Assembly (NCBI RefSeq): GCF_026427715.1
Contig: NZ_CP107558.1
Span: 2,779,001-2,843,000 of the forward strand
Source: Methylocystis sp. MJC1
Lineage (GTDB): Bacteria; Pseudomonadota; Alphaproteobacteria; Rhizobiales; Beijerinckiaceae
Direction: 5' to 3'
Length of the DNA: 64,000 nucleotides
In this document: positions 6,639 through 23,557 of the stretch, piece by piece
How positions within the stretch are numbered: position 1 is the stretch's first letter
Layout of the letters: each line of letters starts with the position of its first letter
The notes under the pieces: generated by a model
What the model saw: only the letters and a program-made list of their open reading frames with translations
What the model was told of the DNA's origin: nothing
The model's database searches: none
Position numbers and translations under genes: made by a program

Positions 6639-8249
6639 TCAAGCTGCACGAGCGGAGATTACCGGACCTTGTATCGCCCAGTTCCAGGGCAGCAACTCTT
6701 CAAGCCGATGTGCGGGATGGGCGGCGATACAGGACAAAACGTCTGCGAGCCATGCCTGCGGATCGACGCCATTCATTTTGGCCGTGACAATGAGACTATA
6801 CATGGCCGCAGCGCGCTGCCCTCCGCGATCGGACCCGCAGAACAGCCACGATTTTCTTCCCAGCGCGATGCCTCTTAGCCCTCGTTCTGCAGCGTTGTTG
6901 GACAAGCACACGCGTCCGTCTTCAAGGAAAAGCGTGAACGCGGCCCAGCGCTTGAGCATGTAACTGATAGCCTTGACCAGGTCGTGCCCGCGCGAGAGCC
7001 TGGCCGCCTGCTCGCGCATATAGATCCGCAGATCATCGACCAATGGACGGCTCAGCATCTGGCGGACCGACAGGCGTTCTTCCGCGCTCTTTCCATTGAT
7101 GGACCGCTCGATTTCGAACAGCGCGTCGATGCGACGCACCACCTCGATCGCGATGGGCGACAAAGGGATTTCCTTCTTGCCAGCAGCCTTGCGTCGCGCG
7201 TTCTCATCCAGATCAGCCATGGCGAAGAAGGGGCGTCGCGCATGGACCCAGCACGCCGCCTCGCGGATCGGGCCCGGCTTGCGGTCCGCTAGGTAGAGCC
7301 TGTTGTAGCCGTCATAGGCGTCGGCCTGCAGGATGCCAGCATATCCCGCCAGATGCGCCTGCGGATGTTCGCCTTTGCGGTCGCGTGAGTAATAAAAGAT
7401 GGCCGCCGGCGGCCCGGCGCCGCCGAAGGGCGCGTCGTCGCGGACATAAACCCAGCACCGACCCGTGTCGGTTTTGCCCTTCGCCAGCACGGGAACCGTG
7501 GTGTCGTCGCCGTGTAGGCGCTCGGCGGCCAGGACATGCGCCTCGATGAGACGCCGCAGCGGATCCAGCGCCGCACAGATGGAGCCGACGGCGTCGGCCA
7601 TGGTCGACAAGGAGATCGGCGCGCCTTCCAACGCATAGCGCTCCGCCTGACGGTTCAGCGGCTGATGTTGGCCGAACTTCTCGAAGGCGATCATCGCCAG
7701 AAGGCTTGGCCCCGCCCAGCCGCGCGGAACGGCATGGAACGGCGCCGGCGCCTGTGTGATCTTCTCGCAGTCCCGACAGGAGAATTTCTCTCGCACGGTC
7801 TCGATCACTTTCCACTGACGCGGCGTCGTCTCCAGCGTCTGCGTCACGTCTTCGCCGAGCTTCCGCAGCCGCGATCCGCCGCAGCAAGCGCAGCTCGTCG
7901 GCGCCTCGATTACGACGCGCTCGCGCGGTAGATGTTCCGGGAATGTGTGGCGCTCGGACCGTTTGCGCGTGAAGCCCGCGACCAGCGTGGTTTTCGTGAC
8001 CGCCTGCTCCGCCGCGAGCTCATCTTCCGTCGCGCTCGCTTCCAGCTCTTCGAGCTCGAGCGACAACTGATCGATCAGCCGCGCAGCGCGCTCCGACTTT
8101 TGCCCGTAGATCTGCCGCTGCAACTTGGCGATCTGAAGCTTTTGCGCGGCGATCAGCGCCGTGTCTTCCGACGCCTTCGCCCGTGCGACGGCCAACTCTG
8201 CTTTCAGCGCAGCATTTTCGTCGAGAAGGGCCTGGGCAGCAGCGTCCAT
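6639..8249 (-). CDS. tnpC: IS66 family transposase TnpC
   Basis: The 536-residue main transposase of the element. It has an N-terminal coiled-coil with leucine-rich heptads (about residues 1-75), then IYGQKSER, a zinc-finger-like CACCG and CRDC pair (about 118-155), and the DDE catalytic region. [10 protein letters not shown] supplies the first Asp, [13 protein letters not shown] the second, and [20 protein letters not shown] the Glu near residue 470. The length is normal for IS66 TnpC. It ends at 6639, and the passenger gene begins 3 bases later or overlaps it. It is separated from tnpB by 70 bases, the usual IS66 layout. Confidence 0.95.
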
Positions 8250-9087: not shown

Positions 9088-11085
9088 TCAGGCAGCTATC
9101 TCAAAAACCGCAATCAACGCCAGGCGGCCGCCGCCGGAGGGATACTGATCTTGCATCGATTTGTCAATGTAAAGGTAGGTGCAAGGAGGGGCGTCAAAGC
9201 CGGTAAGGAGCTTGTCGACGACCACCAAAAGCTTCATGTTGGCGGGCTCTTTGATGAAAAGTTTCTTGGCCCATTCTTCATAGGTCTCGGTCTTTGTCAT
9301 GCCCGGCTTGGGCTCGATATTTTTGAGCAGTTCCGTGTAGGTGTTGAAAATGAACTGCTTGTCGGTTTCGGTATTGGCCCCGGTTTCCTCCAGCGTCACA
9401 TCCTTATTTTGCGGGTTGTAGGAGGTGATGACCGCGCACTTTCCCTTGAAAACTGTTTTTTGGAAAAGCGAAAAACATTTACAGGCCTCGTAAATGCTCG
9501 AGGCGACCAGGATGGCGTTACCGCGCTCGCTTGAAAGGCGCGGCTTGACGCTGAAGTCGAAAATGATGTCGCTCACAACGCGATCCATGCGTGACTTTGA
9601 ACTCAGGATCGTTTGGAGCGTGCCCCATTTCTTTTTCAGCTCGTCCTTCTGCCAGTCATTAAGGCCTTTGGTCTTGGCCTCGAACCATGCGTCAATCTTA
9701 TCCGTTGAGCCCAGCTTCTGGTCGATGTCACGCGCCTCGTAGATAAGATCGAGCACAACCTCATCCTCGACCGCTTCACTGAATTTATAGGTATGAATGT
9801 AACTGCCAAAGACTTCGAGGCTGGTGGCCCGATCCTTCTTGAGGAGAGGGGTGCCGGTGAAGCCGATGAAGACTGCGTTAGGCATTATCGCCTTCATCGC
9901 GCGATTAAGCTTGCCGCCTTGGGTGCGATGACATTCGTCGACAAAAACGAAGACTTCGCCCACCGTGGAGCTCGGCTGTGCCTCCAACTGTTTGATGAAG
10001 GCATCAAAGTCGTCGACATCTTTTTGCCCGAACTTATGAACGAGCGAGCAGAGAAGGCGCGGCTTGGCTTGGCCCAACTGGCTCAGGAGATCACGCCCAC
10101 TGTTGGTACGCTTGATCGGTTCGCCGGCCTCGGTGAAGACCCGTTCGATTTGCTTATCGAGCTCGTCGCGGTCGGTGATGATCACGACGCGTGCATGGGG
10201 ATTGTTTTCGAGGATCCATTTGGCGAGCAGCACCATGACGATGCTTTTGCCGCTGCCCTGGGTATGCCAAATGATGCCGCCCTTCTTCTCCCAAATGTAT
10301 TTTTGGGCCGCCTTGATACCAAAATACTGATGCACCCGCGGCAGCTTCTTCACGCCGCCGTCAAACAGGACAAAATCATGCATTAGCTCGATAAGCCTGT
10401 CCTTGGCGCAGAGTTTGAGGAGGTATTTGTCTAGCTTAAGACGGCTGTTGTCTTCTTCATCTTCTCTCCAAGTGAGGAAGAGCTTCTCAGGCGTCCCGAT
10501 CGTTCCGTATCTCAGGCCTTCCGTGTCGTTGCCGGCAAATACGAACTGAATGGTAGTGAAGAACCAAGCATTAAATTCAGGCAGTTGGTTCGAGAGGTTT
10601 TGCCTGATGCCATCGGCGATCGAGGCGCGACTGCGCTTCAATTCGATCACGCCGATCGCGATGCCATTGACGTAAAGTACCAAATCAGGGCGACGCTCGG
10701 CGGATCCTTTAAGGGTTACCTCCTCGGCGACCGCAAAATCGTTGTCGTGCGGCTCGTTCCAGTTGATCAGTTGAACCAGCTCAGTAACTTTTCCGGCCTC
10801 AACCTTGACCGGGACGCCATAACGCAAGAGCGCATAGACAGCCTCGTTGTTGGTATAAAGGCTCCGGCTGTGATTGTTGGCCTCGGTGCGCAGCTTGTGC
10901 AGCGCGCTGCTGATCTGCGCCGATGTGTAACCGCGACGGGCGAGAAAGTCGTTGAGGAGGTTTTCCTCGATGTTGCTATTGCCCGAACGGTCCGTCCAAT
11001 CGCCAAGATAGCGATAACCAAGCTCATTGCGAAAGAGCTCAAGAACTCGGTTTTGGGTGGCGCGTTCGGTTTTGCCAATCATCAT
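9088..11085 (-). pseudogene. hsdR: hsdR, N-terminal fragment with IS66-derived tail
   Basis: Type I restriction subunit R, the ATP-dependent translocase and nuclease of the HsdRMS complex. Native sequence runs from 11085 to 9146 (about 647 codons) and contains the nuclease core PD (133-134) and ELK (148-150), Walker A HTQGSGKS (274-281), the Walker B/DEAD-type DECHR (383-387), FTGTP (about 409-413) and LLTGFDAP. After YIDKSMQD the frame runs into the IS66 end and stops about 20 residues later. The start ATG overlaps the stop of the DUF262 gene. The missing C-terminus is at 5244-6359. The truncated product keeps the nuclease and most helicase motifs but loses the last motor motif and the docking domain, so restriction is probably lost while modification by HsdMS can continue. 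Confidence 0.92.
9146..9153. repeat. Right copy of the 8-bp target site duplication of the IS66 element
   Basis: TGATCTTG, identical to 6352-6359; together they bracket the element exactly. Confidence 0.92.
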
Positions 11086-13034
11086 GTTTGCAATTCCTGG
11101 ACAAGAATTTCAGCTTTCACGTAAGCCTTAAAATCATCGATGTTTGTGAAACAGCGGAAGCCAGCTTGGCTGGCGGCAGCGATCGTCTCCGCACCCTCGT
11201 TCAAAAGAACCGCGACCGGCTGCGTCAACTCCTCTTGCAAGCCGGTAGGCCACGCTAGATCTAAGACCGCGCGCTGCTCACCCGTCGCCTGGTCAATCAA
11301 TTCGAACGAAATTGCGCCGCGAGGTAGGTTGTGCGTTTCGATCCAATCATCCAACGCTTCGAGCTCTTCTTCCTCAGCTTCGCTGGTAATGGCTCCGATA
11401 GTTGCGCTTGCCGATGCGATCGGCTTTGAGGCTCCGGTTAACCAGCGGGTGTCGCCGTGGAGCAGCTCTTCCATGCGGCGGTTCACTTCAGCGGCGAGCA
11501 GAGCTTGACGGGCTTCAAGGAATTCGGGGAAGTGTTCAATTTTCCAGAGGCTCGCGTCGGCGGGGATCCATTGCGAGGCCAATGCGCCAGGATGGCGCTT
11601 CTCGATTTCTGGGAAATACTCTTCGGGTAGGCGATCGCTGATATTGAGGTTGGTGTCCTTGGTTAGGAAGCAGAAATTCGCAAGCGCGTTGACCTGCGGT
11701 TTTGAATATTTGCGCTTGTAGAGCTGCGCTTTCGGAAAAATATGATGCACTTCAAGGCTGCTCATTTTGCCAAGAAGGCTTGCCTTCAACGCTAGGCCTG
11801 TTCCCCAATCGCGGGCTTCGCCCATGCGGGTAAGCATGTAGAGGACTGGATAAAAACGCGCGCCGAGGCTCCAGCCGGTAAAGTGTCCAGCCTCGACACG
11901 GAGGCCGCCGTGCCACAGACGCAATTGCTCAAGGAGTTTTTCAAGACCACCATCAAGGCCTTCAAGCGCAGCCAAGTCCTGATCGATATAGCTTTCAGTC
12001 GACCCGGAAAAACGTCCCCACATGCCCGATTGGACAAACCAGAACAGGAGCTTGTCCCGTTCCTTTTCGTCCATCGGGCCTTTGCGCTGATCGAGGTAAC
12101 GAACCATTACCGGCACACCAAAACGGCCGAAAAACACTTGATCGTGATCGAGGCCGAGACGTCCGCCGATCAGATTGAGGCAGGTATCGATGTGTTTGGT
12201 GGCGCGCTTGAGAGCGTCTTGAATCTCCTCGGCGCTCTTGTCATGAAGGAACTGGAATTTAGCTTCGCCGGTCAGAACTGTATTCATCGAGCGAAGCATC
12301 CAATCCAGGTTGAAATGATAGTCGGCCTTACTCCATTCCTTGAGCTTGCCCTTCATGGCGTCACGTGCCTCAGGCCAATCGGCACAAATTTTCGCTAGGG
12401 CGAGATCGCCGTTTGAGAGCTTGGTGCCGCCGCTATTGACCTTGTTGAATATATCCACCACGACATCGAGGGTTTTGTCAGTGCCGGTGATTTCCTCGAC
12501 ATGTAGCGTTACATCGAGGACGCCCAAAAGGTGGCTGAGGCGGGCAACATAGTCGCCGATCATTGGGGCCAAGGCAGGGTCCGCGCTAAGACGCGTCACA
12601 TATCCGCTCAGGCCTGCCGTGCCTTTCCCTATCAGCTCGGTAACATCGATCCAAAGCGGGTCGCCTTGCATCTTTAAAGGCTGATAGAAAGCGAAAGTCT
12701 CCGTACCCAGATGGAACTGCAGGCCCGTGAACGCTTGCGCATTGCCATCGAAAAATTTGGGAGGACGGCCGCGCGCTACGCCATACAGTGAGGTCATCCG
12801 TTGCTGGCCATCGAGCAGCATCTTCACGATGCCCGCTGCTAGCTTGCCGTCCCCACGGTGTGCCGCCGTCTTGGACTCGGTAGCCCAAACGAGCAAGCCG
12901 CCGATCGGATGGCGCTTGTAAATCGAGTCAAAGAGACCGCGAACCTGATCGCGGTTCCAGACATAGCCGCGTTGGAATTCAGGTAGGGCCATATGGCCGC
13001 TGTCAATGTGATCGAGGATGGTGGAAATTTTCAT
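11082..13034 (-). CDS. DUF262/HNH (GmrSD-like) protein embedded in the hsd operon
   Basis: A 650-residue protein. The N-terminal DUF262 domain shows LPEFQRGYVWNRDQVRGLFDSI near residues 17-38 and the ParB/Srx-like nucleotide motif DGQQR at 75-79, followed by FNKVNSGGTKLSNGDL. A DUF1524-type HNH motif LEVHHIFPKAQLYKRK lies near 428-443. This combination is that of GmrSD/BrxU-type modification-dependent restriction enzymes, which use NTP and cut modified DNA. The C-terminal 150 residues are acidic and unassigned. The start overlaps the hsdS stop and the stop overlaps the hsdR start (ATGA type), so the gene is translationally coupled inside the operon and was presumably acquired as a fixed part of it. 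A role as a type IV partner guarding against phages with modified DNA is inference. Confidence 0.88.
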   Translation of the reverse strand: MKISTILDHIDSGHMALPEFQRGYVWNRDQVRGLFDSIYKRHPIGGLLVWATESKTAAHRGDGKLAAGIVKMLLDGQQRMTSLYGVARGRPPKFFDGNAQAFTGLQFHLGTETFAFYQPLKMQGDPLWIDVTELIGKGTAGLSGYVTRLSADPALAPMIGDYVARLSHLLGVLDVTLHVEEITGTDKTLDVVVDIFNKVNSGGTKLSNGDLALAKICADWPEARDAMKGKLKEWSKADYHFNLDWMLRSMNTVLTGEAKFQFLHDKSAEEIQDALKRATKHIDTCLNLIGGRLGLDHDQVFFGRFGVPVMVRYLDQRKGPMDEKERDKLLFWFVQSGMWGRFSGSTESYIDQDLAALEGLDGGLEKLLEQLRLWHGGLRVEAGHFTGWSLGARFYPVLYMLTRMGEARDWGTGLALKASLLGKMSSLEVHHIFPKAQLYKRKYSKPQVNALANFCFLTKDTNLNISDRLPEEYFPEIEKRHPGALASQWIPADASLWKIEHFPEFLEARQALLAAEVNRRMEELLHGDTRWLTGASKPIASASATIGAITSEAEEEELEALDDWIETHNLPRGAISFELIDQATGEQRAVLDLAWPTGLQEELTQPVAVLLNEGAETIAAASQAGFRCFTNIDDFKAYVKAEILVQELQT

Positions 13035-14302
13035 ATCAGTCGAATCCGTCCGGTCAGTAATTCTTGCATCATGCCTTGTTTGATCTCGAGGATCTTGGTG
13101 AGTTTCGATTCAAGCACGGTAATTTGAGTTTCGTAGTCGATAAGAATTTCTGTGATTGCAGCTTGCTCGCCTATCGTTGGCGGTAATGGCACCGGCAAAG
13201 CCGCATATTCCTTCCCGTTTATTCCTGGCTGCCCACTACGCATAGAATTCTCCTTTACCCAATTCCAGTAAGGCCGACTTTGCATATAAAGCGACAGGAA
13301 TTCCGGGAGGAGGCAATCGCTATTTGGGCTTAACCGTATTAGAAATCCCGCAAAAACGAGCATGCCATCAAGGGGGTTGTAAAGGTACGATTTGCCGACA
13401 CTCGCGCCGGTTCTCGCGACAGCAATGTCACCGGGCTCAAGTTCATAAGAACTACACATTGGATGGGCTACAGACGCCTTTGCTGTGTGTTCGAATTTGC
13501 CGTGCTCCGTAATGTCGGTGATTCGAAGATACGTTGGATATCGAGTATCAAAATCAGTTGCAGGTGCGTTTATGCCGTACTTGGGCGCTCTGCGGAGGCA
13601 TTTCTGGAGCGAAACCACGTCCCAATCGCTTGGAATCGTGCCAATATCCGTTTGTTTATAGCCTTCATTACGAGAAAAACTCGGTAAGCGCCTCTTCCCT
13701 GTCAGCAACTCCTGCATTGCGCCCTGTTGGAGGTCGCGCTTTTTCGCGATGAGCTTTTCAAGAGATTCGATATAACCATTCGTCGCGCTTAGGGCCGCAG
13801 CGATTGCCTCTTGTTCCTGCTTGCATGGTGGATAGGGGAACTGAAACCCTTCCATCTGCCATTTTTGGACGTGAACTAGAGCCGATGCTCCGTGCGCCCA
13901 TCCTTCAATGTAGGTTGTGAGCTGTTTCAGAGCATGAAAAAGGAAGCTCTTGTCGATCTCCGACTCGAACGCATTTATTTTCCACGTATGGTAATTAAGT
14001 AATCCGAGAGGACCGGACCAAATATGAGGTCCGAAGGAGGTGCCACGGCTGCCGGACCACGCAAAAAGCAGTTGGCCAGGCTCGATCTCGAGTTTTTTGG
14101 CGTAAGATCCGTCGAAGAAATTGAAATCATCGGATCCATTCAGATTCTGAATTCGAATGATTGGGAGGCCAGAAGTTTTCCATTCGAAAGGCTTGAAGCC
14201 CCTGCCATTGATTAGTACGCAAACGCTATCGATCCGACGCGGTTCCCAATCGTTGGGGATAACACCGACTTCGGTCTGCTTGTATCCAGGTCTTACTTCC
14301 AT
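13031..14302 (-). CDS. hsdS: Type I restriction-modification specificity subunit S
   Basis: 423 residues with two target-recognition domains in tandem, each introduced by a matching motif: GYKQTEVGVIPNDWEP at the start and GYKQTDIGTIPSDWDV near residue 215. Each ends in a coiled-coil spacer closing with MQELLTGKRRL and MQELLTGRIRLI respectively. This two-fold symmetry is standard for HsdS and implies a bipartite recognition site. It overlaps hsdM by 10 bases upstream and the DUF262 gene by 4 downstream. The target sequence cannot be read from the protein alone. Confidence 0.95.
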   Translation of the reverse strand: MEVRPGYKQTEVGVIPNDWEPRRIDSVCVLINGRGFKPFEWKTSGLPIIRIQNLNGSDDFNFFDGSYAKKLEIEPGQLLFAWSGSRGTSFGPHIWSGPLGLLNYHTWKINAFESEIDKSFLFHALKQLTTYIEGWAHGASALVHVQKWQMEGFQFPYPPCKQEQEAIAAALSATNGYIESLEKLIAKKRDLQQGAMQELLTGKRRLPSFSRNEGYKQTDIGTIPSDWDVVSLQKCLRRAPKYGINAPATDFDTRYPTYLRITDITEHGKFEHTAKASVAHPMCSSYELEPGDIAVARTGASVGKSYLYNPLDGMLVFAGFLIRLSPNSDCLLPEFLSLYMQSRPYWNWVKENSMRSGQPGINGKEYAALPVPLPPTIGEQAAITEILIDYETQITVLESKLTKILEIKQGMMQELLTGRIRLI

Positions 14303-16692
14303 GTGAATCCCATCCTTTCCAGATGGCAGTTCACTTTCTCCTCCAATTCAGAAACCAGGGTCATCAATTGGGGCGCAGTTGTCTCGTAGCGTTCAGCCAG
14401 CTGCTTGATCCGCTGAGTGAGAGCCTGACTGATGCGATCCATTTCGCCGTGAATGGCTGTGTCGAGCGCGGCGAGCCACTTATCGTCAACGACCAAAGCT
14501 TTAATTTCCGGCTCGGCCAGCTTTGGATATTTCGCAAGCGCCTTGGCGTCTAGCGCTGCCTCGGCGTCCTTAAGGCGTTTTTTGAGTCCGGCTTCTTCTT
14601 CAGCAAGCTTCAGCCATTCATTGAGTATCGCAGCCTCATCTTTAGCGTCCTTATCGCCTTTGATCTCTTTCAGCCGTGCAGTGACATTCGCCTTGTTTAT
14701 CTTGTCGATCTCCGCGAATGCAGCTTCTTCGCCACCATGTTCTTCTTCCAGTTCGGTTCGCTGCGCCTCCACGCCTTCCAGCTGCGCGGTTAGCGTTGCG
14801 ATCTCCTCTTGGTCTTTCGAGAAAAAGCGGGCGACAATGAGCGCCTTCGGGATAAGGTCACAGGTCCAACCCTTGTCCCTTTCCTTGCCCTTCTTATCGG
14901 TCTCGATAATCCGGTAGGTCTCGGCTTTCCAACCGTCGGCGGAAATCAGATAGCAGTCGTCCTGCATCACCGTGGCCCAGTAATCCATGAGATGCTGGTA
15001 GACCGCGTATTTGTCGATAAGTGGCTTGTCAGCGTAGTGCGCCAGCAAATCCTCGGAGAGTTCCTCGATCAGCTCTTTCGGGTGGAAGCCAGGCTCTAAA
15101 TCTTTGAGGAGCGCCGCGCTCTTGTCTCGCCATTCGACAAAGTGCGAGTTCATATCCGCGATGAAGGCGCTGAATTGTGGATGGTTGTAAATCGTGGATT
15201 TGATCGCGGATTTGTCGACCGCAAGGTCAACATAGCCGGGGCGATTGTCCTTGAAGAGAGCCTTGCGAAGATCGGGACAAACCTTCCAGTAGCGACCCAG
15301 CGCATCGATGTCGCGCTGCGGAACGCCGCCGCGCAAATGTGCCTCAATATCCTGGAGGTCCTCTTCCTGCTGGCTATCGATATAGCGCGGCAGGTTGAGA
15401 TTGAACTCGTTTTTCTCGATCTCTGCAAAAGAGACCATGCGGCTGTATTTCGGAATTTCCAGCTGCCGCGAAAAGGCGTCAACGATTTGGTGCATATCCT
15501 GCGCCCGCAAACGGTTTTTGGGTCCGTCTTTCATGAAGCCTTGGCTGGCATCAATCATGTAAATGCCCTTACGGGCAGCAGCCTCGGCTTTGTCGACCAC
15601 CACGATGCAGGCGGGAATGCCGGTTCCATAAAAGAGGTTAGCCGGCAGGCCGATAATGCCCTTGATATAGCCTTTTCGTACGAGGTTGCGCCGAATGTCC
15701 GCTTCGACATTGCCGCGGAACAGGACGCCATGCGGCAAAATGCATGCGCCGCGACCTGTGCTTTTTAGCGACCGGACGATATGCAGTAGGTAGGCGTAGT
15801 CGCCCTGCTTTGCCGGCGGCACACCGAAAGATTCAAAGCGTTGGTAATCGTCGTCGGCCGGGTCAAATCCGGTGCTCCAGCGTTTGTCCGAAAAAGGCGG
15901 ATTAGCGACGACAAAATCAAAACTCTTGAGAGCGTCGCCATCCTTGAATTTCGGGTCGGCGAGGGTATTGCCCTGCACGATCAGTGCAGTCGGATTGTTG
16001 TGGAGGATCATGTTCATGCGAGCGAGACTGCTCGTCGCTGAATCTTTCTCCTGCCCATAGAGGGTTACGGCGGTGCCGGCTTCGTGGCCAACTTTTAGGA
16101 GCAGCGAGCCCGAGCCGCAGGTTGGATCGTAAACCGTCGTCGCGGCGCTGGTCTTGGCTTCATGGATGCCAATGATCTGTGCGATGACGCGGCTTACTTC
16201 GGCAGGCGTGTAGAATTGGCCCTTGCTCTTGCCGCTTTCAGTCGCGAAATGCCGCATGAGATATTCGTAGGCGTCACCCAGAATGTCGTCGCCGTCGGCC
16301 CGATTCTTCGAAAAGTCGAGCGCCTTGTTCTCGAAAATAGCTATCAGGTTCGTGAGTCGGTCGACCATTTCCTTGCCACTGCCAAGCTTATTGGCATCGG
16401 CAAAGTCCGGCATGTCAGACAGCTTATTGGCGTCAGCGAGGGGGGTGATGATCTTTTTATTGATTTGGTCGCCGATATCGCTCTTGCCTTTGAGCGCGAC
16501 CATATCTTTAAAGCTCGCCCCTTCGGGAATAGTAATCGGCGCGAAAGGCTGCCCGGCATATTTATCGCTGACGTATTTTATGAAGAGGAGGACGAGGACG
16601 TAATCCTTATACTGGCTCGCATCCATACCTCCACGGAGTTCATCACAGCTCGACCACAGCGAAGAATAGAGTTCAGATTTTTTAATTGCCAT
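14293..16692 (-). CDS. hsdM: Type I restriction-modification DNA methyltransferase subunit M
   Basis: A 799-residue N6-adenine methyltransferase. It has an N-terminal HsdM helical domain (YKDYVLVLLFIKYVSDKY), the SAM-binding motif DPTCGSGSLL near residues 190-199 and the catalytic NPPF near 262-265. GQFYTPAEVSRVIAQI precedes motif I as usual. The C-terminal 200 residues form a charged coiled-coil that lengthens it beyond the common 500-residue HsdM; this long form is typical of the subtype paired with HsdR of about 1000 residues. It is the first gene of the operon; the promoter should lie in 16693-17224. Confidence 0.95.
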   Translation of the reverse strand: MAIKKSELYSSLWSSCDELRGGMDASQYKDYVLVLLFIKYVSDKYAGQPFAPITIPEGASFKDMVALKGKSDIGDQINKKIITPLADANKLSDMPDFADANKLGSGKEMVDRLTNLIAIFENKALDFSKNRADGDDILGDAYEYLMRHFATESGKSKGQFYTPAEVSRVIAQIIGIHEAKTSAATTVYDPTCGSGSLLLKVGHEAGTAVTLYGQEKDSATSSLARMNMILHNNPTALIVQGNTLADPKFKDGDALKSFDFVVANPPFSDKRWSTGFDPADDDYQRFESFGVPPAKQGDYAYLLHIVRSLKSTGRGACILPHGVLFRGNVEADIRRNLVRKGYIKGIIGLPANLFYGTGIPACIVVVDKAEAAARKGIYMIDASQGFMKDGPKNRLRAQDMHQIVDAFSRQLEIPKYSRMVSFAEIEKNEFNLNLPRYIDSQQEEDLQDIEAHLRGGVPQRDIDALGRYWKVCPDLRKALFKDNRPGYVDLAVDKSAIKSTIYNHPQFSAFIADMNSHFVEWRDKSAALLKDLEPGFHPKELIEELSEDLLAHYADKPLIDKYAVYQHLMDYWATVMQDDCYLISADGWKAETYRIIETDKKGKERDKGWTCDLIPKALIVARFFSKDQEEIATLTAQLEGVEAQRTELEEEHGGEEAAFAEIDKINKANVTARLKEIKGDKDAKDEAAILNEWLKLAEEEAGLKKRLKDAEAALDAKALAKYPKLAEPEIKALVVDDKWLAALDTAIHGEMDRISQALTQRIKQLAERYETTAPQLMTLVSELEEKVNCHLERMGFTWK

Positions 16693-17182
16693 TGGACCGG
16701 GCTTTGTTTTTGAACAGGTTTATGGTGATTCCGAGATGCGCAGCTTAGCGAGCAGAAGGGGCTTTGTGAATCTGCTTGTGCACGCGAGGGGAACCGCCAG
16801 AGCCAAGGACGTGGCGGGCGACAGCCTGGGCACTTTACCGGCGTCTCTCACTTCGCATTTGCCTCACCTAGCGAAGGGGAGCCCATGGCGGTAGAGGAGA
16901 GTCGGGACGCGAATGCAGCGCTTGATCCACCTCGTGGAGGTGATCGACACGGCCCACCTCACCGACCTCCAAAAAAACTGCAAACCTTAGATCATTGGCC
17001 GCCTGGCGCTTCATCATAAATGAGGCCCCCGGTCTGTCGCTCGGATACCACAAAAATATCTGGTTAAAAAATCTTCACGATAAAAAAATTGAACGACTTC
17101 CCTAGAAATGGGAACTAATACCCAAGAATGAGCAGCTTAATGCCTTGTAAACCAAGCATTCCGCTGATTAGTTTCGGCGTCC
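16693..17182. other. Divergent intergenic region between hsdM and the nucleotidyltransferase gene
   Basis: About 490 bases with no credible gene; the few short frames are of atypical composition. The right 150 bases are AT-rich and must contain the promoter of the rightward gene. The left part should hold the hsd operon promoter. I see no terminator-like hairpin. Confidence 0.5.
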
Positions 17183-17213
17183 ATCCATACAATCATTTTC
17201 ATATTGCATGGAT
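17183..17213. promoter_or_regulatory. Inverted repeat abutting the ribosome binding site (candidate operator)
   Basis: Arms ATCCATACAAT (17183-17193) and ATTGCATGGAT (17203-17213) match with one mismatch across a 9-base spacer. The right arm touches the AGGA ribosome binding site of the gene starting at 17225, a position suited to repression or translational control. Confidence 0.5.
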
Positions 17214-17224
17214 AGGAATTTCAT

Positions 17225-17932
17225 ATGACGGAACATTTTGTTTTAGACCATGAAAAGATTACGAACGCTTTGAGTGAGCTTGGATCAATCATCGGTGCAA
17301 CGCTTCAGCGTAGCGTGACCGTCAGGATATATGGGGGAAGCGCGCTCATCCTTGCCTCCAATTTTCGCCGCACTACATTCGATATCGATTTTATCGGAAA
17401 CAAAATCCGGCCTGTCCCGCAGCTATTGAAAGACACAAGAAGAGATAGTCCAGAAAATGATTTTCTGGTCGCCGCTGCTGAAATCGTCGGCAAGAAATTC
17501 GGTTACAAGGAAGGGTGGTTCAATTATCAGGTGGCGAGAACGATTAGCGGTGCTTTTGATCATCACGACTTGGCCCACCATGAGCCGGTTGGACGCTTCC
17601 CGGAAACGGGGCATGGCCTTGAGGTGCACGTTCCATCCCTCGATTATATTTTGGCCATGAAGCTGCAGGCTCAGCGCATTAAGCCTGCTGAAGAGTATAA
17701 AGATTTGAGGGACTTAATATGCTTAACGCGGATCAAGGGGGATGAAATCAAAAACCCCGACGATCTTATCGAAATTCATGCTAGGTTTTACAGACCCCGC
17801 CAACGGCGCATGGATTTTGAGGATAGAATTGAACAGCTTTGGGAACATCATATTACGGGAAAGGTCCCTGTGGCTGTCCGACGCGCCGGAATCCCCGCAG
17901 CGCCGCGATACCTTGGCTATGGTCGCTCATGA
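17225..17932 (+). CDS. DUF6036-like nucleotidyltransferase-fold protein (AbiEii-type toxin superfamily)
   Basis: 235 residues with the start of a polymerase-beta-type nucleotidyltransferase fold: YGGSALIL near residues 36-43, then TTFDIDFIG near 50-58, matching the G-G-S...D-x-D signature. YILAMKLQAQR and EYKDLRDLICL further on match the AbiEii/DUF6036 helical part. AGGA sits 7 bases before the ATG. The next gene starts inside the last 14 bases of this one, so the pair is probably one operon. AbiEii-type proteins are toxins of type IV toxin-antitoxin systems that modify tRNA or other targets. Here the usual AbiEi winged-helix antitoxin is not seen, so the toxin role is inference. Confidence 0.7.
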   Translation: MTEHFVLDHEKITNALSELGSIIGATLQRSVTVRIYGGSALILASNFRRTTFDIDFIGNKIRPVPQLLKDTRRDSPENDFLVAAAEIVGKKFGYKEGWFNYQVARTISGAFDHHDLAHHEPVGRFPETGHGLEVHVPSLDYILAMKLQAQRIKPAEEYKDLRDLICLTRIKGDEIKNPDDLIEIHARFYRPRQRRMDFEDRIEQLWEHHITGKVPVAVRRAGIPAAPRYLGYGRS

Positions 17933-18482
17933 GCATATGTCGGGTATCCGCGATATCAGCTTAGGCATTTTTACTTTCATCGACACCGTATATCGCCAAG
18001 CGCTTTTTGTGCCGGTGGCTTGCTATGAAAACGGCATTGGCACGCGCGAGGAATGGGGCTCTCTTTCTGAGGATCAATTCCTAGCTTACTTCCGGCTAAA
18101 TGTTCCGGAAGATGGGAAAGAATTCTTGCGCGAGAAGTTTAGGGAACGTCCGGTAATAAGCGAATTGAGGACCAGGATTCATTTTGCCGCGATGACACAT
18201 CATTTCCATCGGATTTTCGGATTAGGACCATCCCCTGAATGGACGGAAAGCCCCGATCTGAAAGCGGCTAAGCTCTACGATATTAAGCCGCTCATCAACC
18301 GCCCAATCAGCTGGGCCATGAGAGACCCCGAGGAGAGGATCGCCCATTTCAGCAATCTCGATGCAGCGCGCTACGCCGTAAAGGAAGGAGCCTTGAATCT
18401 CCTTGATCAAGGCCGACATGGCGATGTTGGCCGTCTTATCCTTGAAGGCATGAAACGCGCTAATGGGCTTACCCTTCCGTGA
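17919..18482 (+). CDS. Unknown protein translationally linked to the nucleotidyltransferase gene
   Basis: About 187 residues, starting MVAHEHMSGIRDIS and ending MKRANGLTLP. The reading frame is open for another 59 codons upstream, inside the preceding gene, but those residues are a shadow of it. I took the first ATG in the overlap (17919); an ATG at 17937, after the upstream stop, is the alternative. The protein looks soluble and mixed alpha/beta, with no motif I recognise. Tight coupling to the nucleotidyltransferase suggests a functional pair (antitoxin, cofactor or co-effector), but nothing in the residues proves this. Confidence 0.6.
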   Translation: MVAHEHMSGIRDISLGIFTFIDTVYRQALFVPVACYENGIGTREEWGSLSEDQFLAYFRLNVPEDGKEFLREKFRERPVISELRTRIHFAAMTHHFHRIFGLGPSPEWTESPDLKAAKLYDIKPLINRPISWAMRDPEERIAHFSNLDAARYAVKEGALNLLDQGRHGDVGRLILEGMKRANGLTLP

Positions 18483-18692
18483 TTAGCTTGCAGCTGCAAA
18501 AATGGGCGGCTCTAAAAGACTGAATTAACGCCACCCTCCTCTGTTAGAGTGAGCTACGGCCATATGCGCCCTTTCCTTTTATCAGACAGACGCCGAAGAG
18601 GTCCGGTCAGGCATCGAGCCGATAGAAGCGGGCCGTATTGCACGCCGATCGGTTCGGCGAAATGAGAATGAGTTCGCCACTGGCAGAGACGA

Positions 18693-19133
18693 TCAGCGCG
18701 ATCCTCCCAACCATTTTTTGATCAGAGCTTTAGCCATATCCCAGCCCTCTAGCACACGCTGAACGATTGCATGAAGTGGGCCAACGCGAACTTTCCCAAG
18801 CTCGATTGCGTCGTGGAGGTCTTGCGCCTTCACCGCCGCGATCATTTCAGGCGACATCGCGCCCGCCCATTGGACGTGACTTCCAGTTATCCAATAGTGT
18901 GATTTGCAGGGGAAGCTCCAATTGCCGATAGACGGAGCTAGCGACACAGCCCCGGCACGATCGGTGAGATGCCACTTTGCGGGATTGAGAGGCGTGACGA
19001 CTTCCATTCCGCACCCGCAGCAGCATTGATGTGAGGCTGTTGAATACCGCCGCGAGATATACAGAACGCCCGGTTCCAGACATTCCGGTATAAATTCGAC
19101 GAATTCCGGCTGAAGCTCTAGAATTTTGTTCAT
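18693..19133 (-). CDS. DUF6527 family protein, third gene of a ubiquitin-like/E1-like operon
   Basis: 146 residues with HQCCCGCGMEVVTPLNP near residues 35-51 and SIGNWSFPCKSHYWITG near 68-84, which together look like a metal-binding Cys/His site. This matches my memory of the DUF6527 pattern, a small family found beside ThiF-like enzymes and multi-ubiquitin proteins. The start ATG overlaps the stop of the E1-like gene by 4 bases (ATGA), so the two are co-translated. Function is not known. Possible roles are a conjugation partner, a deconjugating enzyme or a zinc-dependent adaptor replacing the missing E2 or JAB peptidase (inference). Confidence 0.72.
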   Translation of the reverse strand: MNKILELQPEFVEFIPECLEPGVLYISRRYSTASHQCCCGCGMEVVTPLNPAKWHLTDRAGAVSLAPSIGNWSFPCKSHYWITGSHVQWAGAMSPEMIAAVKAQDLHDAIELGKVRVGPLHAIVQRVLEGWDMAKALIKKWLGGSR

Positions 19134-20302
19134 GCCAATCCTTCAACAACGGTCTCGCCGCTAGCTAACGAGTAGCCAGCGTAAACTTCTTTGCGAGTAT
19201 CATTATACACGCCGAAAAGCTTTTTCCATCTGATCACCGCCATAGCGGCGTTCAAAGCGTTCAACTCGGCAATCTGGATGTTGCTCGAATACTCGTTCGC
19301 TCCAACGTCGCCCTCAGCAAATGAGATATGCCGCGCCGCGCTGTCTCGCGTGTCGGCGGTGCTCGTCGTCGTCCGCACGATACCGGATAACCGTCCGTCA
19401 TTGACCACAACCCCCATTCCGACATCGATAAAGGGTACGCCGCGGTTGACAACGTGTTCGATAAGCGCCCGCTTTGTCGAACCTACGTCCATGCAGACGA
19501 AAATAAAGTCGAGGCCGTCAAGGAGAGCGAAGTTATCGGGCTCGAGGAAGGCGTCGTGTACGGTAATTCCCCGACGCATGTTGGAGTAAATCGCGGCGAA
19601 CCGGGTCACCTTTTGAGGCTTAGCCTGCAACTCCTCGATCGAAGGTGCTCCCGGAGAGCGGAATGCGTTGTGTTGCGAGAATATGTCGCCATCAAAAAGA
19701 CGTATCTCCGCTACGCATGTTTTAGCCACAAAGTCGAGGATGTAGGAGCCAGTGCCTCCGAGGCCCGCGATGCCAATCCGCAACCCATCCAGCCTAGCGT
19801 TGATCACGCCAATCCCTGCGCGACTAGTTGCCGTATCGATGTATTTGAAAACGCTTTCGTTCTCGCCCGTGGGGATCACCGGGAAGGTGCAGGCTGTTAC
19901 GCTTGGGTCGAGCTTGGCGGCTTCTCCTGAAATGCGGCCCATATAGGTCGTCATTTTATGGTAATAGTCGCGATAATCTGCCTTAGCGGAAAACGTGAAA
20001 TCGGCGCGCACACCTGGAGCGAGATCCTGAGGTGCGGAGGAATTCTCGATTGACGAGATTTTTGAGCCGTCGGCATGACACGGATGTGTGCCAGTCCAAT
20101 AACAGACATGGGTATCAGGCTTTTCGGCAATATCGCCGGATAGTTTAAGCGTCGAGATCAGCATGCCTCGGCGCACTGCGCGCTGTGAGTCGATAAACGG
20201 GACGTCCCTGACGAGCAGGAAGCCATCCCCGATATCGATATCGTAACCTTCGTTCTGCAACCGCAGAAGATCAGGGCTAAGAGCGATTGGTCGACGTGAC
20301 AT
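19130..20302 (-). CDS. ThiF/E1-like adenylyltransferase with N-terminal DUF6791-type domain
   Basis: 390 residues. The C-terminal half is an E1/ThiF Rossmann fold: IAGLGGTGSYILD with the nucleotide loop at 180-186, LFDGDIFSQHNAFR near 202-215 (the D...N...R signature of E1-like enzymes) and FVCMDVGSTKRAL near 268-280. The N-terminal 165 residues carry THVCYWTGTHPCHADG (64-79) and DYRDYYHKMTTYM, a pattern I associate with DUF6791. I chose the second ATG (20302) because GGGA/GGAA lies at a suitable distance before it; an ATG at 20317 is possible. The start lies inside the end of the ubiquitin-like gene, and the stop overlaps the DUF6527 gene. Likely reaction: ATP-dependent activation of the ubiquitin-like C-terminus. 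C270 and the N-terminal C67/C75 are candidates for a thioester cysteine. Confidence 0.82.
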   Translation of the reverse strand: MSRRPIALSPDLLRLQNEGYDIDIGDGFLLVRDVPFIDSQRAVRRGMLISTLKLSGDIAEKPDTHVCYWTGTHPCHADGSKISSIENSSAPQDLAPGVRADFTFSAKADYRDYYHKMTTYMGRISGEAAKLDPSVTACTFPVIPTGENESVFKYIDTATSRAGIGVINARLDGLRIGIAGLGGTGSYILDFVAKTCVAEIRLFDGDIFSQHNAFRSPGAPSIEELQAKPQKVTRFAAIYSNMRRGITVHDAFLEPDNFALLDGLDFIFVCMDVGSTKRALIEHVVNRGVPFIDVGMGVVVNDGRLSGIVRTTTSTADTRDSAARHISFAEGDVGANEYSSNIQIAELNALNAAMAVIRWKKLFGVYNDTRKEVYAGYSLASGETVVEGLA

Positions 20303-20561
20303 CGAATTCCATCCCATCCTTCACTTTGACCGACTGCCCCTCGACTAAGGTACCGGCCGGCTTGTTGCCCTGGCCGCGCGTGTACTGGACCGTGAACTGG
20401 ATGCCGTCACCGGATGGCGGATTGGGAAAGGCAAGAGAGACTACCTGATCGAAGGTGATCTCCTCATTCTTAGGCACTGTCTTCGCGCGGCCGTTGACGA
20501 TAATGGTTACGGTTTTAGTCTCTTCGGCCTTGCTGTGCTCTTTAACGTCTTCACTGCTCAT
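20277..20561 (-). CDS. Ubiquitin-like (multi-ubiquitin family, single domain) protein
   Basis: 94 residues. After a 17-residue charged leader comes one beta-grasp domain: VTIIVNGRAKTVP, ITFDQVVSLAFP, FTVQYTRG, then LVEGQSVKVKDGMEFDV and the tail TSTNRS. This agrees with the Multi_ubiq family pattern as I remember it; many members have several domains, this one has one. The tail has no Gly-Gly. An excellent ribosome binding site (AAGGAG, 8 bases before ATG 20561) decides the start over the longer open frame. It is the first gene of a leftward operon with the E1-like and DUF6527 genes. The likely job is a protein modifier activated by the E1-like enzyme; anti-phage function is inferred from related bacterial ubiquitin-like systems and the island setting. 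Confidence 0.8.
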   Translation of the reverse strand: MSSEDVKEHSKAEETKTVTIIVNGRAKTVPKNEEITFDQVVSLAFPNPPSGDGIQFTVQYTRGQGNKPAGTLVEGQSVKVKDGMEFDVTSTNRS

Positions 20562-20617
20562 AGGGATATCTCCTTCCGAAACACCACAGAGAATCGCGGT
20601 GTTCCAATTTTTCAATT

Positions 20618-20634
20618 GATTGCGAATTCGCAAC
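20618..20634. promoter_or_regulatory. Palindrome 1 in the divergent promoter (candidate XRE operator)
   Basis: GATTGCGAATTCGCAAC contains the perfect palindrome TTGCGAATTCGCAA. It shares GATTGC..A..TCGCAA with palindrome 2 at 20664-20681; the centres are about 46 bases apart. It lies between the ubiquitin-like gene and the XRE regulator gene. Confidence 0.6.
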
Positions 20635-20663
20635 TGACCTGGTATATAACATTGACCAAAGCT

Positions 20664-20681
20664 GATTGCAATATCGCAATC
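20664..20681. promoter_or_regulatory. Palindrome 2 in the divergent promoter (candidate XRE operator)
   Basis: GATTGCAATATCGCAATC has inverted GATTGC/GCAATC arms and is closely similar to palindrome 1. It is positioned 29 bases before the XRE start codon, suited to autoregulation and control of the leftward operon. Confidence 0.6.
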
Positions 20682-20709
20682 GATAGCTTTTTAGCAATAC
20701 GGAGGTCGG

Positions 20710-21054
20710 ATGGCGGAAAATTTCGACATGGAAGCCTTCTATGCGGCGTTGAACGCCACGCGCCTGAGTCGACAGAAGACATGGAAGGAGGTTGCCCAGG
20801 AGACAGGGATTGCTGCATCGACCCTCTCACGAATGGGGCAAGGCGCGAAGCCCGACGTGAACGGTCTTGCAGCGCTTCTGAAATGGTCGAACCTCAAAGC
20901 CGAGATGTTTATCCCGGGGGCTAGCAAGAAAGACGCGCCGCCAATTGCTAAGCTTACTGCGCTTCTGCGCGCTGATCCTCACCTTACTCCGCAAAATGCC
21001 AAGCTGATGGAAGAGATCGTGGTCAGCACGTATAACAGGCTGCGGGACGGTTGA
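20710..21054 (+). CDS. XRE-family helix-turn-helix regulator
   Basis: A 114-residue protein with an HTH_3-type DNA-binding domain: TWKEVAQETGIAASTLSRMGQG near residues 25-46, followed by LAALLKWSNL. A strong GGAGG precedes the ATG by 5 bases. The ImmA/IrrE-type peptidase starts one base after its stop, so the two form an operon. Regulator plus peptidase pairs commonly act as de-repression switches, with the peptidase cleaving the repressor. The twin palindromes just upstream are its probable binding sites, which would place the ubiquitin-like operon under its control (inference). Confidence 0.85.
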   Translation: MAENFDMEAFYAALNATRLSRQKTWKEVAQETGIAASTLSRMGQGAKPDVNGLAALLKWSNLKAEMFIPGASKKDAPPIAKLTALLRADPHLTPQNAKLMEEIVVSTYNRLRDG

Positions 21055-21055
21055 A

Positions 21056-21616
21056 TTGGCTTTTCGTCGAGGATTCAAAGCAGAGTCAAATCGCATTGCA
21101 CTGAGCGTCCGCGAGCAGATGGGCCTTGGGCCGCTCGATCCGATCGATCCCATCCAGGTGTGCGCCCACTACGATATTGTACTCCTTAAGCTCAGCGAGC
21201 TCGGCTGTGATTCATCATCCTTCCTCGGGGCCAGCCGCTCCTCCTTCTCAGCGGTAACCGTCCCCTGCGGTTGGCGGACTGCGATCGTTCACAATGATTC
21301 GCATCACCGCTACCGCCAGCGCAGCAACATCTGCCATGAACTTGCTCATTGCTTTCTCGGTCATCAGTGCACGCCGCCGCTCACCGAAAGCGGTGGACGC
21401 GCTCACGACGGCGGCATTGAGGCTGAAGCAAACTTTCTCGCCGGCACCCTATTGATTCCGAATGAGGCGGCGATTCATATCCTCCGCCAGGGGCTCATCC
21501 CTACTGCGCAAACCATCTATGGTGTAAGTCAGCCGATGCTGGACTACCGTCTTCGCGTGAGTGGGGCTTACACAATCCATGCGCGGCGTATGGGGAGAAC
21601 CCGCGCGGATTCCTGA
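21056..21616 (+). CDS. ImmA/IrrE family zinc metallopeptidase
   Basis: 186 residues. SNICHELAHCFLGH gives the HExxH zinc site (H94, E95, H98), and EAEANFLAGTLLIP near residues 122-135 supplies the downstream Glu and conserved helix. Both are diagnostic of ImmA/IrrE peptidases that cleave XRE-type repressors (ImmA on ICEBs1 ImmR; IrrE/PprI on DdrO). The start is a TTG one base after the XRE stop, with GGGACGG upstream; no ATG fits. The likely substrate is the adjacent XRE protein, releasing the divergent operon upon a damage or infection signal (inference). Confidence 0.85.
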   Translation: MAFRRGFKAESNRIALSVREQMGLGPLDPIDPIQVCAHYDIVLLKLSELGCDSSSFLGASRSSFSAVTVPCGWRTAIVHNDSHHRYRQRSNICHELAHCFLGHQCTPPLTESGGRAHDGGIEAEANFLAGTLLIPNEAAIHILRQGLIPTAQTIYGVSQPMLDYRLRVSGAYTIHARRMGRTRADS

Positions 21617-21899
21617 ATAGCGCTCGCTAGTTTTGGGTAGGGGTGCACCCCGTCTGAGGGGCTATGTGGATCCGACGGCGCATACGGACTATTCCCTAGT
21701 TCGATCGGCCGCCAATCATTCCCTCGTCCCGATCTGGCTTTCCGAACCCGCAGCCTCGCAGAGCCGTCAAAGGCGCGCAGCGGCACCGCAGTCACGCGCA
21801 GCCAACGGCGAGCATGGCGAGGAGCCACCCTTTGACGGGTCGAGAAGCGTAGGGATCATTACCTGGACGGGCGAGAGCGGTCCGAAAATCCTCTTCAGG
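21617..21899. other. Convergent intergenic region, no gene seen
   Basis: 283 bases between the peptidase gene and the end of the fic gene. No credible open frame, and no clear terminator hairpin with a T run. Confidence 0.45.
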
Positions 21900-23072
21900 T
21901 TAGCGCGCGAAAGGCTCCGTGCCCTGGTTGAGGATATCGAGATAGGCTTGGTAGACAAAAACCTTGTGCCGTTCTTTGCCGGTCGCTTCCCGGACAATAC
22001 CCAACGCTTCGAGCGTTGCGAGACCGCGCAAAGCGGTCGGCAGTGAAACCTTGCAGGCTTCCTTGATGCGGGTGGTGGTGGCAACCGGGTGGCGCTGCAG
22101 ATAGGCATGAATGGCGAGAACGGTGGCGGTCGATTTGCCGGAATTTGCGATTTTTGCTCGGTCTTCGCTGAAGAGCGCGAGGACGGCCCGCGCGGTATCT
22201 GTCGCCTGATTGGCGACCTCGATAACGCCCGTCAAAAAGAATTTGATCCAGGCTTCCCAGTCGCCGGTCGTGCGGACGGATTGCAGATGATCGTAGTAAG
22301 CTTGGCGGTTCGCTTTCAGATAGAGGCTGAGATAAAGCAGCGGTTCTTTAAGCACGCCTTCGGCACACAGGATGAAGGTGATGAGCAGCCGGCCAAGGCG
22401 GCCGTTGCCGTCAAGGAACGGGTGGATCGTCTCGAACTGCACGTGGGCAAGAGCGGCCTTAATCAGGACCGGAAGCTTGACCCTTTCGTCATGCAAGAAT
22501 TTTTCAAACGCATCGAGCGCTTCATTCAGCCGTTCGGGCGGTGGCGGCACGAACAGCGCCTTGCTTGGGCGTGATCCGCCGATCCAATTTTGCGTGCTAC
22601 GAAATTCGCCGGGCGTCTTATCGCCACCGCGCGCATTACTCATGAGCTTGGCGTGAATCTCGCGCAGCAGTCTGAGAGAAAGAGGCAGGCTCTTCAGGCG
22701 TTCGAGGCCATAATCCATAGCCGCGACGTAGCAGGAGACTTCCGTCACATCGTCCATAGGTACGCCGGGGGCTTCGTCGGTCTCAAACAGGAGCAGGTCG
22801 GACAAGGAGGATTGCGTTCCCTCGATCTGGGAGGACAGCACCGCTTCCTTGCGGACGTACATATAAAGGAAGAGAGCTGCGTCCGGCAGGACCATGCTCA
22901 TCCCGTCCAGGCGACCAAGCGCCGTATTCGCCTGATCAAGCAGCGGGTAAAGCGCGCCCATGTCTAACGGCGGGTCGGGCGGAAGATTAGCGGGGACATA
23001 GGCTTCGTAGGCTTCGCCACCGACCAGGCTCGACCTTATCAGCTGTCCCACGCGATTGTTTGTGCAGGTCAT
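21900..23072 (-). CDS. Fic family protein adenylyltransferase, class II, with C-terminal winged helix
   Basis: 390 residues. The Fic core motif HPFLDGNGRLGR (217-228) has all catalytic residues (His, Asp, Asn, Arg) for transfer of AMP to target hydroxyls. The N-terminal inhibitory motif SSQIEG (80-85), of the (S/T)xxxE(G/N) type, marks a class II enzyme whose Glu blocks the ATP site until displaced. EFRSTQNWIGG matches the Fic_N-Fic linker. The C-terminal 80 residues (TTTRIKEACKVSLPTALRGL) look like a winged helix-turn-helix, suggesting DNA binding and autoregulation. The gene stands alone; its promoter carries two matching inverted repeats. The target is unknown. Many free-standing Fic proteins of this type are chromosomal, so a defence role is only suggested by position. 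Confidence 0.9.
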   Translation of the reverse strand: MTCTNNRVGQLIRSSLVGGEAYEAYVPANLPPDPPLDMGALYPLLDQANTALGRLDGMSMVLPDAALFLYMYVRKEAVLSSQIEGTQSSLSDLLLFETDEAPGVPMDDVTEVSCYVAAMDYGLERLKSLPLSLRLLREIHAKLMSNARGGDKTPGEFRSTQNWIGGSRPSKALFVPPPPERLNEALDAFEKFLHDERVKLPVLIKAALAHVQFETIHPFLDGNGRLGRLLITFILCAEGVLKEPLLYLSLYLKANRQAYYDHLQSVRTTGDWEAWIKFFLTGVIEVANQATDTARAVLALFSEDRAKIANSGKSTATVLAIHAYLQRHPVATTTRIKEACKVSLPTALRGLATLEALGIVREATGKERHKVFVYQAYLDILNQGTEPFAR

Positions 23073-23083
23073 GACGGATCAAA

Positions 23084-23107
23084 TAACAAAATTGGACAGA
23101 TTCGTTA
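23084..23107. promoter_or_regulatory. Fic promoter inverted repeat 1
   Basis: TAACAAA, 10-base spacer, TTCGTTA; it begins 12 bases before the fic start codon. It differs from repeat 2 by one base in the left arm. Confidence 0.55.
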
Positions 23108-23153
23108 GTAGGCCGAAGATAGCTCACGCGGATGTTAGTTGCAAGGAATTAAG

Positions 23154-23177
23154 TAACGAAATGTATTGAATTCGTTA
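23154..23177. promoter_or_regulatory. Fic promoter inverted repeat 2
   Basis: TAACGAA, 10-base spacer, TTCGTTA, with perfect 7-base arms. It lies exactly 70 bases from repeat 1, about seven helical turns, so both sites face the same side of the DNA. Confidence 0.55.
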
Positions 23178-23557
23178 GTTATCGGATAGCGGCGCCCTCC
23201 CCCCTCTGAACGGCCCTTCAAGCTAAACGAACGCTCTTCGAGCTCCGTGATTCCGAAGGTCACCCTATTTTCGATAGGACGGGAGGCTCCCAAAAGGCCG
23301 GTTCGAGACTAAAACCAAGCAACGCTAGTTTTCGGGCGCTGGCGGGGGATTTGAGGTGCGGGGCACACGGTAGATTGGTGTCATAAACGATTGAATTAAC
23401 GCTAAAATCTCGTCTGTCGGCGCGAGCCAAAAAGTTCGGTATGCCTCTACGAACTTCAGCCAACAGCTTCCCAAAACTTGTCAACACCCCCGCTATTCCC
23501 TTACGGGATGGATATCTGCGACCGACGCGCTCCTCCCGCGGGGGCCTGTCTTCCCCA
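23178..23557. other. Intergenic stretch between fic and the next gene
   Basis: About 380 bases with no credible gene and no clear hairpin. It marks the transition from AT-richer island DNA to GC-rich core sequence. Confidence 0.45.

Follow-up and report, generated by a model that had tools for sequence, protein, structure and literature searches.

Three genes lie side by side on the minus strand at positions 18693-20561 of a 64,000-nucleotide (nt) stretch of the Methylocystis sp. MJC1 genome (contig NZ_CP107558.1, positions 2,779,001 to 2,843,000; hereafter referred to as the window) and encode, in order, a ubiquitin-like protein (Ubl), an E1 (ubiquitin-activating)-like enzyme and a DUF6527 protein. 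All three open reading frames (ORFs) are intact. An earlier note on this stretch had described three overlapping genes, and this description holds: they encode Multi_ubiq, DUF6791–ThiF and DUF6527 proteins, and overlap by 26 nt (Ubl and E1-like, counted from the inner ATG at 20302) and 4 nt (E1-like and DUF6527). A helix-turn-helix (HTH) gene and an M78 peptidase gene are divergent from the trio, on the plus strand. The features are as follows, with conservation counted over the 89 loci described below.

20277-20561, minus strand: Ubl gene, a single Multi_ubiq domain of 94 amino acids (aa) with the tail ...FDVTSTNRS (PF14452, E 8.7e-19)
20280-20282, minus strand: C-terminal Ser codon of the Ubl, within the 26-nt Ubl/E1 overlap; Ser in 87/88 loci
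19130-20302, minus strand: putative E2-like/E1 fusion (DUF6791–ThiF), 390 aa from the conserved inner ATG (PF20590, PF00899)
19793-20302, minus strand: modelled DUF6791 stretch, residues 1-170, with a predicted E2 (ubiquitin-conjugating, UBC) fold; predicted local distance difference test (pLDDT) score below 50 at residues 144-170
19988-19990, minus strand: DUF6791 Ser105 (Ser110 in the 395-residue numbering), proposed E2 nucleophile; 89/89
20078-20080, minus strand: DUF6791 Cys75 (Cys80 in the 395-residue numbering), rival candidate nucleophile; 86/89
18693-19133, minus strand: DUF6527 gene, 146 aa (PF20137, E 1.2e-22), with conserved C-x-C-G-C, P-S and C-x-S-H motifs
20710-21054, plus strand: HTH gene, candidate repressor, 114 aa, with weak HTH matches under the Pfam cut-offs
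21056-21616, plus strand: M78 (ImmA/IrrE-like) peptidase, CapP-like, with HELAH (PF06114, E 6e-11; PADLOC capP, E 6.8e-11)
20620-20633, no strand: putative operator, 14-nt palindrome TTGCGAATTCGCAA
20666-20679, no strand: second putative operator TTGCAATATCGCAA, 46 base pairs from the first

The E1-like gene probably starts at the inner ATG, because a start codon 26 nt upstream of where the Ubl stop codon ends is present in all 88 loci with both genes (86 ATG; GTG in L051 and TTG in L072) and the database protein identical to the window E1 (P0001) has 390 aa. The outer-ATG version spans 19130-20317 and encodes 395 aa; in its numbering, the extra N-terminal domain that had been noticed on the E1 is DUF6791 (residues 15-162, E 5.8e-52), followed by ThiF (residues 175-317, E 6.3e-12). 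JAB and Prok-E2 models matched none of the three proteins at E 0.1, profile scans of the DUF6791–ThiF protein found neither rhodanese nor JAB, and Prok-E2_E (PF14462) was unmatched anywhere in the same genome. An Rfam scan of 16000-23500 gave no match, and promoter and terminator scans of the locus scored no better than shuffles.

The trio is a conserved unit. We surveyed two random genome samples, 385 genomes of the class and 398 of the phylum, each including the window's own genome. DUF6791 occurred in 7/385 class genomes, with a Ubl gene directly upstream and a DUF6527 gene directly downstream in 7/7, and in 8/398 phylum genomes, with all three genes side by side in 8/8. The neighbourhood survey that had been set beforehand as a refutation test of the proposal therefore found the trio complete in all 14 distinct DUF6791 genomes of the pooled samples. 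DUF6527 and Multi_ubiq occurred in 19 (18 over the cut-off) and 15 (13 over the cut-off) of the 398 phylum genomes, respectively. A scan of species genomes yielded at least 578 relatives. We retained the best 80, whose record titles indicate Proteobacteria, Acidobacteria, Bacteroidota, Cyanobacteria, Actinobacteria, Verrucomicrobia, Planctomycetes, Nitrospirae and one archaeal bin. Together with seven class-sample loci (including the window's own) and two predicted viral contigs, these form the set of 89 loci, in which Ubl is present in 88 (the exception, L088, starts at a contig edge) and DUF6527 in all but L043. Gene order is thus conserved across many phyla, far above chance.

At least 7994 E1 relatives were found at E 1e-10 (90%-identity clusters; 7999 candidates scored), both DUF6791 and ThiF being present in all 120 relatives listed, and the system also occurs on 114 plasmid records. 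The trio has probably moved horizontally, because DUF6791 is absent from near relatives (one same-genus and 11 same-family genomes among those listed) and GC content is lower in the first 24 kb of the window (mostly 0.51-0.59, against 0.58-0.68 further on). Both viral contigs, L088 and L089, carry an E1 relative with DUF6527, and L089 also carries a Ubl gene.

By VIA-align, the predicted model of DUF6791 has an E2 fold; the next-best fold matches are to the inactive ubiquitin E2 variant (UEV) domain of TSG101. The earlier note had supposed that the E2 and JAB roles must be fused, replaced or absent here: an E2-type role seems, from the model, to be fused to the E1 through DUF6791, and JAB is unmatched in the three genes. 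Ser105 is invariant in the 89 loci, and Cys75 is replaced by H, Y and F in L005, L006 and L086. The invariant residues H65, G71, P74, G79 and Ser105 cluster about strand 4 and just ahead of the final helix, with Ser105 five residues before Tyr110. Prok-E2_E proteins likewise keep a Ser (mostly in WSRH; FSWH in L162 and L163) 5-10 residues before the Trp preceding their last helix, and we infer that both serines occupy the position of the E2 catalytic Cys. Two other assignments were set aside: DUF6791 as a sequence-recognizable Prok-E2_E domain, hhalign being insignificant, and DUF6791 as a JAB analogue (a suggestion of Iyer), no JAB/MPN fold being among 50 fold-match rows, although an absent row is not proof.

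In the E1 module, the adenylation residues are invariant across the 89 loci, in part by selection, since GGTG and HN-FR-PG were search patterns; D209, D211, K236 and D277, and all of DUF6791, Ubl and DUF6527, lie outside these patterns. No Cys is conserved in this module (best column, 55/89). Its profile A1 matches the BubC-containing structure 9ea5 (E 6.8e-8, profile positions 166-300), and also TcdA and MccB structures.

The sole solved-structure match of the Ubl, whose relatives span 84-301 aa, is 9cd2 (E 7.8e-9). Its C-terminal residue is Ser in all but one of 88 loci (Ala in L006). The first base of this Ser codon doubles as the third position of E1 codon 7, and is T in 72/72 two-fold pyrimidine codons and 15/15 four-fold codons of the E1 frame, whereas the AGY/AAY/GAY codons of the same genes favour C (2747 C versus 1843 T); sequence kinship inflates all counts of this kind. 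We rejected the terminal Ser as a mere by-product of gene overlap, because T is retained where C is synonymous in the E1 frame: C would keep the E1 residue but give Pro, and is used in 0/72 two-fold cases. In Prok-E2_E fusions (46 listed, all near relatives of L147), a TTEG junction precedes the E2 domain, and L148 differs; the two versions thus have different tails.

The DUF6527 protein has a confident model (pLDDT 92), and its residues C37, C39, C41, P67, S68, C76, S78 and H79 are each kept in 87 or 88 of 88 proteins. The RefSeq record of Escherichia coli ES2 labels the third gene of the trio 'ubiquitination-like system serine protease family protein', and other records name it DUF6527; a deconjugating or processing protease is likely.

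Of the 70 loci testable upstream, 52 have an M78 gene within 2.5 kb of the Ubl gene, whereas none of 71 has one downstream (L084 has one further off). The 52 comprise 26 divergent cases, 3 short co-directional cases and 23 co-directional proteins of at least 800 aa, many of these 23 being close relatives. The long proteins of L062 (the only one of the 23 scanned) and E. coli L171 combine M78, UvrD helicase and PD-(D/E)XK nuclease domains. HTH relatives are also divergent to the Ubl gene; no capH-named PADLOC row was returned for the window HTH protein, whose HTH profile matches are weak. Two operator-like sites also occur in L008, L009, L013 and L018, and a single one in L010 and L153. In CapH–CapP pairs, the CapP-type peptidase cuts the CapH repressor upon sensing single-stranded DNA. 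An HExxH-bearing M78 peptidase likewise lies beside the window's operon (HELAH, with the capP model match). On the repressor side, there is a weak HTH match and two palindromic sites lie in the divergent promoter, and the HTH protein is a possible CapH-type repressor. According to a 2026 EMBO J study (PMC13373217), CapW or CapH and CapP regulators occur in 219 of 544 Bub operons and respond to DNA damage. The adjoining repressor–peptidase pair and the defence island proposed earlier are both borne out: the HTH and M78 genes are present, and the surroundings are rich in defence genes and lower in GC.

In Bub operons, JAB lies on the E1 (BubD), BubB is a Prok-E2_E protein and BubC is the E1 module. 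The trio shares with Bub (BubB/BubCD structures 9ea4, 9ea5, 9ea8, 9eae and 9eav) an E1 module homologous to BubC, but lacks JAB, in whose place stands DUF6791, and Prok-E2_E; its predicted E2-type domain is attached to the E1 and not to the Ubl, which has a free C-terminal Ser. The Ubl family includes ZDHYS365 multi-ubiquitin domain protein (PDB 9cd2), which has a TDKS tail but 222 aa; the 10 of its 20 plasmid relatives that were listed overlap a ThiF gene. In Cap2-type fusions of cyclic oligonucleotide-based antiphage signalling systems (CBASS), an E2 domain precedes the E1 in a single chain. PADLOC E1–E2 models match the ThiF part of the trio's protein and leave DUF6791 uncovered; unlike CBASS, the trio has a dedicated Ubl gene, and no cyclase (cGAS-like) gene was found among the scanned neighbours, the nearby nucleotidyltransferase being AbiEii-like. 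Bil (BilABCD) shares with the trio Ubl conjugation, as predicted for the latter, and the BilA structure 8u38 matches longer Ubl relatives but not the window Ubl; the separate E2 and JAB genes of Bil were not found among the scanned neighbours, JAB having been searched there and not genome-wide.

The earlier note had taken the system to be under-described. However, Iyer 2006 (PMC1779556) already lists operon type 6e, with one to three Ubl repeats, an E1 bearing JAB or a 'domain X' N-terminally, which replaces JAB and was suggested possibly to act like it, and a metal-binding protein; a 2024 review (PMC11354881) restates such polyUbl operons. We infer that domain X is DUF6791. The trio and the domain X subset have in common one to three Ubl repeats, a non-JAB N-terminal domain on the E1, no rhodanese, a separate, putatively metal-binding protein and a patchy distribution. 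They differ in that domain X was thought possibly JAB-like, whereas DUF6791 has a predicted E2 fold, and the published zinc signature C-x3-C-x(35-38)-H-x2-C is close to C37-x3-C41-x34-C76-x2-H79 of the window, with the C/H order swapped. In the literature searched, which excluded the bioRxiv library, most subscription papers, Ye 2026 and Gong 2025, no paper on the trio beyond these two sources was among the matches listed, and the names DUF6527 and DUF6791 are not mentioned. The trio is thus a known arrangement, uncharacterized in that literature; it is a variant of the Bub/6e kind, and Ye 2026 or Gong 2025 may cover it.

Prok-E2_E occurs in 8/398 phylum genomes (5 over the cut-off), none shared with DUF6791 genomes, and DUF6791 operons do without it. 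All five genomes over the cut-off have DUF6527, and 4/5 have Multi_ubiq (one below the cut-off). Multi_ubiq–E2_E fusions occur in L147 and L148, JAB–ThiF proteins in L147, L148 and L151 (JAB below the cut-off in L149), and kinase-like genes in L149 and L150 as well. If the modelled fold is right, the system exists in two versions, with the E2-type domain on the Ubl in one and on a JAB-less E1 in the other.

We consider it probable that the trio is a compact system for ubiquitin-like conjugation, under HTH–M78 control, and a rearranged Bub/6e relative with an E2–E1 fusion. In such a system, the ThiF module would adenylate the C-terminal carboxylate of the Ubl, at a Ser rather than a Gly end, and the activated Ubl would pass directly to the fused E2-fold domain, most likely onto Ser105, and then to a target. 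DUF6527, as a predicted serine protease, would strip or edit the tag, so that JAB would be unneeded; a maturation cut would also be unneeded, since the Ubl chain stops at its own C terminus, whereas in the Prok-E2_E relatives seen, the E2 domain follows the Ubl. The divergent HTH–M78 pair would repress the operon through the two operator sites until a stress signal lifts repression, probably DNA damage, because the Bub-operon regulators respond to it. If this is correct, a large family of domains of unknown function becomes a testable E2–E1 fusion in a minimal three-gene ubiquitin-like system, the E2 domain has switched partner between Ubl and E1, JAB is dispensable and a ubiquitin-like tail may end in Ser.

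Several observations weigh against this interpretation. The E2 fold stands on one predicted model and VIA-align; Foldseek alone on that model was insignificant (best E 0.39, CorA first), and hhalign did not link DUF6791 to Prok-E2_E (E 0.07, 0.014 and 0.92 (global); probabilities 0.8, 3 and 0.03). The near-invariance of Cys75 leaves thioester chemistry possible. The DUF6527 model has no solved-fold match (lowest Foldseek E 0.64; the top VIA rows cover only its two C-terminal helices), and the protease label is the annotation of one record. M78 is missing upstream in 18/70 loci, and the operator motif is absent from 4 of 10 other promoters tested (L047, L020, L030 and L033). That DUF6791 and Prok-E2_E share no genome agrees with chance (8 x 8 / 398 = 0.16 shared genomes expected) and is no evidence of mutual exclusion, an idea that we dropped.

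Among the alternatives, a stress-response rather than an anti-phage function is a serious contender, if somewhat short of an even chance: PMC13373217 states that phage protection by Bub operons has yet to be demonstrated, and the genes also travel on the two predicted viral contigs. Against it, the trio lies among Dsr1, type I restriction–modification (R-M), AbiEii and Fic genes, and annotated phage records have lone DUF6527 genes and no match to the E1 or to the two Ubls tested. An ordinary thioester cascade, in which Cys75 is the E2 nucleophile charged straight from the adenylate, is possible but doubtful; Cys75 lies within a G-x-x-P-C motif directly after the model's fourth strand, but it is replaced in three loci while Ser105 never is, and Prok-E2_E proteins keep Ser, not Cys, before the last helix. 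It is unlikely that DUF6791 is a noncatalytic E2-fold docking domain (UEV/RWD-like), with a DUF6527 serine acyl-enzyme performing transfer or only cutting: the TSG101 match and the near-universal DUF6527 would fit, but the invariant residues of DUF6791 cluster in the manner of an active site. A biosynthetic ThiS/MoaD-type or MccB-type adenylation pathway, yielding a small molecule or modified peptide instead of protein conjugates, is improbable, since the TcdA/MccB matches and the lack of Gly-Gly in the Ubl are set against the absence of metabolic genes among the scanned neighbours, the predicted E2-fold domain, DUF6527 in 88/89 loci, the patchy distribution and the 114 plasmid records.

Within the favoured conjugation reading, the Ser-ended Ubl, the E1 module without a conserved Cys and the invariant Ser of the fused E2 domain can be combined into a bolder, speculative and rather unlikely scheme, a cascade with neither Gly tail nor thioesters, in which the Ubl is carried as an oxyester on the E2 Ser, DUF6527 is the eraser, acting as a serine protease, and a bare DUF6527 core acquired by tailed phages is the antidote.

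The trio is embedded in a defence-rich, lower-GC stretch with the following neighbours.

837-4496: Dsr1-like SIR2 protein, 1219 aa
5244-6188, 6639-8249 and 9088-11085: type I R-M hsdR in two pieces, with an IS66 transposase gene between; the pieces cover model positions 4-661 and 718-1029
11082-13034: GmrSD/HEC-05-like gene, inside the type I R-M operon
13031-14302: hsdS, type I R-M operon
14293-16692: hsdM, type I R-M operon
17225-18482: AbiEii-like nucleotidyltransferase and, overlapping it, a 246-aa ORF that fits no family clearly

Other upstream arrangements occur elsewhere. AAA ATPase and S8 subtilase genes lie upstream of the trio in L078 (1078-4752) and L027 (2050-5524), where M78 was not found, and L024 and L085 resemble these by their first residues only. 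In L167 and L168 (Klebsiella and Acinetobacter plasmids) and in L171 (E. coli), the trio is preceded by a pair of small genes and a UvrD-helicase gene, with an intervening insertion sequence (IS) element in the Acinetobacter copy. The L171 helicase includes M78 and nuclease domains, and the first of the two small genes there has a weak sigma-70 match. Both plasmid trios lie near Tn7-like transposition genes, and the Klebsiella trio DNA was matched in 3/5426 E. coli genomes.

Tested against 50,697 phage records, the window E1 and two Ubls had no match. Lone DUF6527 genes occur in Erwinia phage pEa_SNUABM_29 (L172:2986-3255), Dulem virus 40 (L173:3998-4282) and Burkholderia phage FLC9 (L174:2956-3270). 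Their 89-104-aa proteins score 65-80 bits for DUF6527, are 44-53% identical to the window protein and retain C37, C41, P67, S68 and H79, without its C-terminal helices. They may be counter-defence deconjugases, and could be used to test for anti-phage activity of such systems; in Dulem virus 40, a gene annotated as a molybdenum cofactor enzyme is found 2 kb further along, which makes other roles possible. More distant DUF6527 genes (L156:2429-2758, phrog_3362; L155:2224-2541, phrog_15183; L175:2501-2830; phrogs of unknown function) adjoin large-terminase genes or sit one gene off, and the L156 query matched 277 phage records.
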